From assembly GCA_029979005.1 (NCBI GenBank), contig JAPOIJ010000018.1:1-44915 (forward strand): a DNA stretch of 44,915 bases, read 5' to 3'. This DNA is from Planctomycetota bacterium. GTDB taxonomy: Bacteria > Planctomycetota > Planctomycetia > Pirellulales > Pirellulaceae. Below the pieces are notes generated by a model that worked only from the letters and a program-made list of their open reading frames with translations, was not told where the DNA came from and ran no database searches. The first letter of the stretch is position 1. The number at the start of each line of letters is the position of its first letter. Shown in pieces: positions 10,350 through 12,179 of this stretch. A program made the translations under genes and the position numbers.

Positions 10350-10417
10350 TCTCACGAATAAGTTGATAGATTGAATGCGGACAGGTTAGCCGTAGTGGAT
10401 TGACTCGTTAAAAAAAT

Positions 10418-10422
10418 GGAGG
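10418..10422 (+). promoter_or_regulatory. Ribosome-binding site that decides the methyltransferase start
   Basis: A perfect GGAGG lies 5 nt before an in-frame TTG at 10428. The ATG at 10416 overlaps this GGAGG and has only an A-run upstream, so TTG 10428 is the more likely start. Confidence 0.6.
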
Positions 10423-10427
10423 ATTCG

Positions 10428-12179
10428 TTGGCCGCAACATTAGCAAAATTCTTAGGTAAAATTCACCAAGGTGACTGTGTTGCTGGGCTTAAAAAAGTTC
10501 CTTCCGGGTCGGTTGATTTAGCCTTTGCCGATCCTCCGTTTAACATCGGATTTAAATACGATCAATATGATGATCAACTGGGCGATGATCAGTACCTTGC
10601 ATGGTCGCGTGAGTGGATGGCTGAGTTGCATCGTGTGTTGAAAAGTGACGGGACATTCTGGCTGGCTATCGGAGATGAGTACGCTGCTGAATTAAAGATT
10701 GAGGCACAGGATTTAGGGTTTCACTGTCGCAGTTGGGTTATCTGGTATTACACATTTGGTGTTAATTGCAAAAAGAAATTTACACGTTCACACGCGCATA
10801 TATTTCATTTTGTCAAAGATCCAAAAAACTTCTTATTCAATCACGATGATATGGACTTGCGAGTCCCATCTGCTCGCAGGCTTGTCTACAACGATGCGCG
10901 GGCGAACCCTAATGGGCGCATGCCGGATGATACCTGGATCCTCAGGCCACAAGAGCTAGTTGACGGTTTTCAGGCGGACGAAGACACTTGGTACTTTCCA
11001 AGAGTTGCCGGTACGTTTAAAGAGCGGGCTGGGTTTCATGGCTGTCAAATGCCTGAACAGTTGTTGGGCAGGATCATTCGCTCAAGTTCCAATCGAAAAG
11101 ATGTTGTCATCGATCCATTTTCGGGGAGTTCGACAACACTCGCCGTCGCTAAGAAATTAGGGCGTGAGTATTTTGGGTTTGAATTGTCAAAAGATTATGT
11201 TCGTCTTGGAATGGAGCGCCTCGATAGGATTTCCACTGGCGATCGGCTAAATGGCAGTGAAGAACCGAGCATGAGCGAATATGCCAAACGAGATGCTCGA
11301 AAAGCAAAGGGAGTCGAAAAAGTACAGCGTGCTCTCTTTGCAGATGATGCAGACATTCATGAATCACTCGTTTCTGAAATCGCTCAGATCATAGAGGCTT
11401 TTTCGAAAACAAACCGTGGATATTCGGTTGATCGTTTGATTGCAGATCCCATTCTGAATGAAGATTTTCAGTTGGCCTGTGACCGGCTCTCGATACCTGG
11501 AACTCCAGCAGAGCGAAACCGTTTTTTGTTCCGCATCAGAAAGGCGGGGAAATTAAAAGCGGCTTCCGTTGATACGACGTTGAGAACAAAAATTGGCTGG
11601 AGAGAAGTGAGTCCATTTTTGTTTGCCAGTGAAATCGCTTGGCGTCAGATTGTCAATAAATATTGCATGAGCCTCGATGAGATTTTTTGTGACCCTAGAA
11701 TCGCCACGCAGTTTGATGCGATCGCCGCGGGGTTTGCCCCCGGATATCAGCCCCTCGATTATCGCTGGGCAGCTTTGAAACTGCGCAAAGAGGGGAGTAA
11801 TGCAAAGCACCGCGCGACATTGCGAACCCCAAAACAGTTCGGGATCTCAGGGTTAAGCAAGAAAAAGTTAAAATCAGCACAAGGAGAATTAGTCTCTGAA
11901 TTAGATTTAGACAAGATTCCTGAAGGACCTGGCGTTTATGTGATTCGTGAACCTGGGGGAGACGCGCTTTATGCTGGTGAAACGAGCCAGCTTGCTGCTC
12001 GGATTGCAACCACTTTTAGTGAGGCAGGCCCCCGCGAGATGTGGTTGAAACAGTTTTCCGACCTGGAATTATTAGTTCAGCCCGTTTCGACGGTAACGGA
12101 CCATCGTTTTGCTAGACAGAGTGTGCTGTTGAAATGGCACCGGCCCTCTTGGAACACCGTTAAGGAACTTGCCGGTTGA
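10428..12179 (+). CDS. Beta-class DNA methyltransferase fused to a GIY-YIG-like domain
   Basis: 583 residues from TTG 10428. Residue numbers here count from ATG 10416. Motif IV DPPF (39-42) comes before the SAM-binding motif DPFSGSST (around 235), the order of beta-class N6-adenine/N4-cytosine methyltransferases such as CcrM. Residues ~290-490 are unassigned. The C-terminus reads as a GIY-YIG domain: GVY with Tyr508, YAG with Tyr519, Arg529 in QLAARI, and HRPSWN ending in Asn580. The spacings Tyr519-Arg529 (10) and 568-580 (12) equal those I recall for UvrC-type domains. The metal-binding Glu expected at 568 is Gln, so the nuclease may be inactive or altered. No separate restriction endonuclease or specificity gene is nearby. 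It may be an orphan methyltransferase, or a one-polypeptide restriction-modification relic. Galactokinase follows 48 bp later. Confidence 0.85.
   Translation: MAATLAKFLGKIHQGDCVAGLKKVPSGSVDLAFADPPFNIGFKYDQYDDQLGDDQYLAWSREWMAELHRVLKSDGTFWLAIGDEYAAELKIEAQDLGFHCRSWVIWYYTFGVNCKKKFTRSHAHIFHFVKDPKNFLFNHDDMDLRVPSARRLVYNDARANPNGRMPDDTWILRPQELVDGFQADEDTWYFPRVAGTFKERAGFHGCQMPEQLLGRIIRSSSNRKDVVIDPFSGSSTTLAVAKKLGREYFGFELSKDYVRLGMERLDRISTGDRLNGSEEPSMSEYAKRDARKAKGVEKVQRALFADDADIHESLVSEIAQIIEAFSKTNRGYSVDRLIADPILNEDFQLACDRLSIPGTPAERNRFLFRIRKAGKLKAASVDTTLRTKIGWREVSPFLFASEIAWRQIVNKYCMSLDEIFCDPRIATQFDAIAAGFAPGYQPLDYRWAALKLRKEGSNAKHRATLRTPKQFGISGLSKKKLKSAQGELVSELDLDKIPEGPGVYVIREPGGDALYAGETSQLAARIATTFSEAGPREMWLKQFSDLELLVQPVSTVTDHRFARQSVLLKWHRPSWNTVKELAG

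Follow-up and report, generated by a model that had tools for sequence, protein, structure and literature searches.

The window analysed here is a stretch of 44,915 nucleotides, contig JAPOIJ010000018.1 of the Planctomycetota assembly GCA_029979005.1. It carries on the forward strand a gene whose 587-aa product joins a DNA methyltransferase, a linker, a helical-repeat domain and a GIY-YIG domain that lacks the metal-binding glutamate; we refer to the last two domains together as the module. Upstream, on the opposite strand, lies a gene for a ThuA protein and downstream one for a galactokinase-type kinase, and no nuclease was found among the five flanking ORFs scanned. The nearest named contigs belong to Mariniblastus sp. 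and other Pirellulaceae; judging by these names, the host, a marine planctomycete, is one of the Pirellulales, from the genus Mariniblastus or close to it. The features of the locus are as follows.

10416..12179, + strand: whole gene (ORF, 587 aa), methyltransferase, linker, repeat domain and disarmed GIY-YIG domain
10512..11210, + strand: N6_N4_Mtase domain, beta-class, residues 33-265 (Pfam 1.2e-52; Foldseek)
10530..10541, + strand: motif IV DPPF, residues 39-42 (sequence)
11112..11132, + strand: motif I DPFSGSS, residues 233-239 (sequence)
11325..11339, + strand: QRALF, residues 304-308, putative sliding-clamp-binding motif (conservation in same-genus linkers)
11382..11825, + strand: all-helical repeat domain, residues 323-470 (pLDDT ~86-98 in the module model, 88-97 in the full model)
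11418..11561, + strand: repeat 1, residues 335-382 (HHalign against repeat 2)
11664..11807, + strand: repeat 2, residues 417-464 (HHalign against repeat 1)
11904..12176, + strand: predicted GIY-YIG fold, residues 497-587 (Z 8.4 to UvrC 1yd6, Z 6.6 to R.Eco29kI E142Q 3mx4)
12000..12002, + strand: Arg529, catalytic arginine position kept (R in 80/98 fused copies)
12012..12014, + strand: Thr533, in place of His (free copies) or Tyr (UvrC-type; family tally)
12117..12119, + strand: Gln568, in place of the metal-binding Glu (family tally)
12153..12155, + strand: Asn580, kept (N in 94/98 fused copies)

The N-terminal half had been described as a beta-class DNA methyltransferase, and this description holds. 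Pfam N6_N4_Mtase matches the 587-aa ORF with 179.5 bits against a cut-off of 26.7, and motif IV (DPPF) precedes motif I (FSGS), both intact, which is the order of beta-class N6-adenine/N4-cytosine DNA methyltransferases. The nearest solved folds found by Foldseek are CcrM 6pbd, MboIIA 1g60 and M.BceJIV 8urk; the NCBIfam PRK11524 and CcrM models also match the protein, yet under their cut-offs. The full-length AF2 model, built from 38 sequences, reached a mean pLDDT of 80.3 and a pTM of 0.51, so the mutual placing of the domains is unsure. Since the best 50 matches of the whole-protein Foldseek search were methyltransferases, the C-terminal module was modelled separately (pLDDT 93.5, pTM 0.90).

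A close homologue of the methyltransferase (core METHYLTRANSFERASE) occurs in 174/196 genomes of the order at E<=1e-60, including 148 of the 159 good ones, as a single match in 170 genomes and with a second match in four. Outside the order it thins out to 21/199 genomes of the phylum sample. A cognate restriction gene, by which a type II restriction-modification system is defined, was not among the five flanking ORFs scanned, and the assembled genome gave no other copy of the module. Order-wide, mostly single-copy and without a restriction partner, the enzyme is a solitary core methyltransferase. CcrM is a solitary regulatory methyltransferase, near-universal and mostly single-copy within an order. 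The window protein resembles it both in this distribution and in its beta-class fold, with M.BceJIV and MboIIA as further structural neighbours; unlike CcrM, it bears a helical-repeat domain and a disarmed GIY-YIG domain.

Judged by Pfam alone, the GIY-YIG domain would have been missed, since the PF01541 search that the preliminary description had proposed returned 13.3 bits, below the cut-off of 22.6 (E 0.1). The UvrC and DEDD-exonuclease NCBIfam models gave partial matches (best E 6e-7), all under their whole-protein cut-offs, and the sequence of the UvrC crystal structure 1yd6 matched at E 4.6e-4. The overlay on the UvrC N-domain, also proposed there, came out in favour of the fold: the predicted module structure aligns with 1yd6 at Z 8.4 and rmsd 2.7 over 83 residues. 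On the strength of the fold and of the family evidence given below, we overruled the rejection by Pfam; profile, sequence and fold matches together place the GIY-YIG domain at about residues 496-582. The PF01541 cut-off was passed by all five free-standing module proteins scanned (23.9-32.3 bits) and by none of the five scanned that are fused to HicB or HsdS. A search of BFVD gave weak matches alone (E 0.009 or worse), and PHROGs gave no convincing match.

The region of about residues 290-490 had been said to match nothing. This is right as far as Pfam is concerned, as no Pfam family covers the middle domain in the proteins scanned, but the region is made up of a linker and an all-helical domain of tandem repeats. 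In a single HHalign comparison the two repeats matched each other with a probability of 95% and E 2.4e-8, and both share a motif that reads roughly S-x-D-x-hh-x-DP ... L-R-K. Comparison of the module model with the PDB gave no trustworthy match for the repeat domain, the best being partial helical matches at Z 5.1. The domain travels with the GIY-YIG domain in both fused and free copies. The full module was found in 7/294 genomes of the phylum sample, all from the class of the window; the other matches listed for this sample start no earlier than position 115 of 250 and span the GIY-YIG part, in the manner of UvrC-type proteins. Among the named contigs with the module is one (L168) titled Phycisphaerae. 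Within the order, 56/196 genomes have a match that takes in the middle domain, according to a manual reading of the listed matches.

The two tyrosines, the arginine and the asparagine of the GIY-YIG domain (Tyr508, Tyr519, Arg529 and Asn580) were all found as the preliminary description had numbered them, and so was Gln568, where the metal-binding Glu would be expected; the protein thus lacks the residue by which an active GIY-YIG nuclease is recognized. A tally of this position over homologues with the same fusion, which had likewise been proposed, shows that the substitution is a trait of the whole family. Among 98 methyltransferase-fused copies, position 568 is Q in 48, K in 25, R in 14, W in four, A in two and I, M, Y or H in one each, with one copy unaligned (L175). 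Glu is found there in 0/98 fused copies, in 29/29 free-standing copies and in 25/25 UvrC-type controls. As many rows of the tally are close relatives, it is worth adding that in a set thinned at 70% identity Glu occurs in 0/72 fused against 25/25 free copies. At position 533, His is present in 28/29 free and 24/98 fused copies, and Tyr in 25/25 UvrC-type proteins. The window domain shares with the UvrC N-terminal domain the fold, the spacing, the two Tyr, the Arg and the Asn, while UvrC-type domains, unlike the window protein, keep Glu and Tyr (25/25) and carry no methyltransferase.

The tally comprised all fetched loci, made unique by sequence, with five of the 98 fused ORFs cut at the end of the sequence available for their locus, and the UvrC-type controls were aligned with the same model as the module copies. 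Left out were six contig-edge fragments (none with Glu, one too short to reach the position), six rows fused to HicB or grouping with such fusions (four Leu, two Glu) and one copy, with Ala, from a fusion to a type I specificity subunit. Seven fused rows from the search for UvrC controls, five of which had already been counted, likewise lack Glu (Q in six, K in one). This tally replaces an earlier one made with a narrower profile (Glu in 0/77 fused, five unaligned; 26/37 unfused, three unaligned, the others L, K, Q and R), because there the free copies were mixed with contig-edge fragments and with HicB- and HsdS-fused copies, and some rows were misplaced. On an unrooted tree of the module in the thinned set, computed with the Glu column excluded, the Glu and non-Glu states are separated by two changes and the fused and not fused states by one. 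Such a topology may indicate one main loss of Glu that has been kept since; that the non-Glu state arose by loss, we infer from UvrC. Overall, the view that the domain is a disarmed nuclease, and that this trait is conserved throughout the family, is strongly supported.

The module also occurs in other company. L085, L100, L107 and L120 carry it behind a ribbon-helix-helix domain of HicB/Arc type (HicB E 5e-10 to 8e-9), and L103 and L104 group with these four on the tree; across the six, Glu is replaced by Leu in four and kept in two. In L111 (811-3294, + strand; G117:C1:4965500-4971500), the fusion partner of the module is a type I restriction specificity subunit (Methylase_S 2.1e-31) and Ala stands in place of Glu; this ORF lies directly downstream of an EcoEI_R_C (HsdR-type) ORF. 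A further ORF, L128 (1519-3963, + strand; G011:C151), combines a glycosyl hydrolase 16 domain with a Glu-bearing module and may be either a real fusion or a two-frame read-through.

The disarmed domain is under purifying selection. Among close relatives, dN/dS amounted to 0.02-0.07 for the methyltransferase and 0.02-0.05 for the middle domain, and for the GIY part to 0.025-0.092 in eight of the nine computable pairs and 0.217 in one; these values come from ten pairs that share sequences between them, one without a GIY value, and are unsure in the several pairs where dS exceeds 1. The two linkers were looser (up to 0.44). The preliminary description had suggested a decayed nuclease that may guide DNA binding: the loss of the catalytic residue stands and the binding is plausible, while the word decayed is misleading for a domain under such selection. 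We also considered simple decay, and thought it unlikely given the low dN/dS and the Asn kept in 94/98 fused copies.

A restriction partner had been reported missing. This is true of the window assembly (92.5% complete, 322 contigs), in which no other copy of the module was found, but not of the family. Context, meaning at least 700 downstream bases or a twin, was available for 90 of the 98 fused relatives, and in nine of these the next gene on the same strand is a second copy of the module, against 0/53 for unfused genes, a chosen set in which at most nine are distant outgroup rows. All nine second copies bear Glu. In six pairs the stop of the first gene shares four bases with a possible start of the second (ATG in five cases, TTG in the sixth), and in the remaining three that start lies at -1, -8 or +7; L086 is a tenth candidate pair, cut by a contig edge. 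The other free Glu-bearing copies (19/29) are not beside a fused gene. Distances among the nine fused modules correlate with those among their twins (Mantel r 0.73, permutation p 0.0004), and the correlation between twins and methyltransferase domains is weak (r 0.32, p 0.08). Mean identity across the nine pairs is 51% for the twins and 35% for the fused copies, and fused copies resemble their own twins no more than those of other pairs. In all probability, then, the two genes have long stood together and were for the most part inherited jointly, rather than having arisen by a fresh duplication. On the methyltransferase tree, paired loci are scattered (eight rows, eight changes), a pattern in keeping with repeated losses of the nuclease gene, with repeated gain as an alternative.

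PF01541 matches four places in the window genome at E<=1: two above the cut-off (C184 and C30), the window gene and a weak stretch in C81. The C184 and C30 proteins have the full catalytic set; that of C30 (G000:C30:32455-32670, L236) lies in a 420-aa frame. Among 19 ORFs scanned beside pairs and free copies, the neighbours were metabolic, repeat or family-less, with the exception of one beside the HsdS fusion, and judging by these ORFs the module loci are not a defence island. A Glu-bearing module protein (L089) had no match in phage records and one weak match, of the GIY-YIG part alone, in plasmids. Two IMG/VR contigs contain the module; by manual reading, one of them has a methyltransferase on the same frame and an adjoining sulfatase-like ORF, and is thus probably chromosomal DNA.

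Fused and unfused forms interleave on the methyltransferase tree, with at least 12 changes of module presence, which means that the module is either dispensable or was gained repeatedly. In unfused homologues the place of the module is taken by a short tail rich in Lys and Arg (46 tails; median 26 aa, 30% K+R, 8% D+E). One methyltransferase homologue without the module (L210, 2737-4716, + strand; G033) carries a 369-aa Lys-rich tail resembling HC2/histone H1. Both kinds of tail look as though such proteins needed some DNA-binding extension.

The linker of the window protein contains a putative clamp-binding motif, QRALF, and residues 298-306, which overlap it, have a pLDDT below 50. A comparison of 18 fused proteins from the same genus shows L307 in all 18 and F308 in 17, the rest of the linker mostly varying; in five more from this genus the linker is short and the motif absent. 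The counterparts in relatives read QLNLF and QMSLL, as in E. coli UmuC and MutS, and QKQLF. The beta-clamp consensus is given as QL[S/D]LF, positions 1, 4 and 5 mattering most (PMC3919608).

Judged by the sequence, then, the family combines intact methyltransferase motifs, a predicted GIY-YIG fold, no Glu in any fused copy examined, purifying selection on the module and Glu-bearing copies elsewhere, some of them encoded by a coupled next gene. On balance, we lean towards a core solitary methyltransferase whose module comes from a nuclease, lacks Glu and has been kept as a non-cutting appendage for DNA binding or target positioning. The ancestor would have been a modification-restriction-like gene pair, and this origin beside a Glu-bearing copy is supported by the nine relatives. 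A cutting domain on a housekeeping methyltransferase would have been harmful or useless, leading to the disarming of the module; still gripping DNA, it might raise affinity or select sites, and the nuclease gene would then have been lost in most lineages, that of the window included. DNA binding is the best inference for the present role of the disarmed module. According to PMC1952068, the E142A mutation of R.Eco29kI abolishes cutting and nicking with DNA binding fairly robust (Kd of 45 nM against 16 nM for the wild type); in a better-fitting cooperative model the values are 970 for E142A against 299, 3100 for N154L and 14285 for H108F, so that N154 matters for binding and H108F mattered most. 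The structural match is moderate (module model 158-272 against Eco29kI 18-156, Z 6.6), and its aligned ranges would put Gln568 opposite E142; Asn580, kept in 94/98 fused copies, is the match of N154. What has been lost and what retained thus resembles a state in which cutting is gone and binding remains. Against a binding role speak the GIY part of the window protein, which is not basic (10 K/R, 12 D/E), and Thr533 at the His position, which is non-His in 74/98 fused copies. The at least 12 changes of module presence count against an appendage, and the ancestry from a pair has against it the small number of loci (nine), the weak correlation of twins with methyltransferase domains and the 19/29 free copies located elsewhere.

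Several other explanations deserve to be weighed against this one. It is possible, if tentative, that the main task of the methyltransferase is maintenance coupled to replication, with QxxLF-type motifs in its linker or tail tethering it to the DnaN sliding clamp and the module secondary; such a reading is compatible with the others. The conserved QRALF and its counterparts argue for it, and so does the excess of Q..[LM][FLP] over 500 shuffles, both in unfused tails (12/50; shuffled mean 0.54, max 4) and in fused linkers (20/91; shuffled mean 1.7, max 7), counts that are inflated by relatedness. On the other hand, 38/50 tails and 71/91 linkers lack a match, the five same-genus short-linker proteins among them, many matches come from one genus and hence are not independent, and the motif, a short one, had been spotted before it was tested. 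We hold as equally tentative a composite scenario in which the family stems from a two-gene restriction-modification system with a DNA-recognition module (helical repeat plus GIY-YIG) shared by both genes, disarmed on the methyltransferase and live in a translationally coupled nuclease, the methyltransferase later becoming solitary and possibly clamp-coupled. Somewhat more doubtful is the idea that the disarmed module serves for pairing, docking to the nuclease of the next gene as a mixed dimer or for delivery to unmethylated sites, the two genes forming one restriction-modification unit. The nine adjacent pairs with their Glu-bearing second genes, the stop/start overlap in 6/9 and the correlated module distances are what one would expect of it, and R.Eco29kI is described as binding cooperatively, with n about 2 (PMC1952068). 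However, no partner stands beside the fused gene in 81/90 loci with context, the assembled part of the window genome contains no second module, and identity within pairs is not above that across pairs.

A functionless relic, carried along dead by the methyltransferase, seems very unlikely to us: forms with and without the module do interleave, and in the nine pairs the fused modules are less alike than their live partners, but dN/dS is low across the whole module, the Asn is kept and the model is well ordered. We would give still a little less credence to a module still able to cut or nick DNA through a metal bound by a different residue. The Tyr, Tyr, Arg and Asn positions are mostly kept and Glu522 (GET) is common (74/98 fused copies); yet E522 also occurs in 15/29 copies with the normal Glu and is therefore no obvious replacement, the Glu position holds K, R or W in 43/98, and position 533 is mostly non-His. 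With the catalytic Glu absent throughout the fused set, the earlier suggestion of a regulated one-protein system is unsupported. A single-chain restriction-modification enzyme of type IIC/IIG was thought unlikely as well, the nuclease Glu being missing.

In the open-access PMC literature searched, we found no prior description of a fusion of methyltransferase and module, nor a two-gene restriction-modification architecture with a shared recognition module. The engineered RM.Eco29kI fusion described in PMC3039593 likewise has GIY-YIG and methyltransferase in one chain, and the inactive R.Eco29kI E142Q (3mx4) bears the same kind of change as Gln568. Unlike the Eco29kI fusion, the window protein is without the catalytic Glu, has the methyltransferase before the module and includes the additional helical-repeat domain; the likeness of its module to R.Eco29kI is one of fold alone (Z 6.6). 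The Lactobacillales fusion of an SLX1-like GIY-YIG domain with a COG4123 methyltransferase also has the methyltransferase at the N-terminus, and, by the description given in PMC1564403, is set apart by another methyltransferase family and another branch of GIY-YIG. The DnmA-YeeB-YeeC cluster of Bacillus subtilis offers a further likeness: as described in PMC9973331, it is conserved and comprises a DNA methyltransferase and a T5orf172/GIY-YIG gene, though these are separate genes with a helicase between them.

What does this family tell us, then? It brings to light a helical-repeat domain without a Pfam family, and it offers for testing a probable example of a pseudo-nuclease retained because it binds, altered at the same residue as in the hand-made mutation of R.Eco29kI. 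If the clamp motif holds true, bacteria would have here a parallel to DNMT1 and PCNA as described in PMC9690074. Finally, the forms seen today may represent a natural series leading from a gene pair to a housekeeping epigenetic enzyme: a methyltransferase with a Glu-bearing nuclease partner, one standing alone with a disarmed module, and one standing alone with no module.
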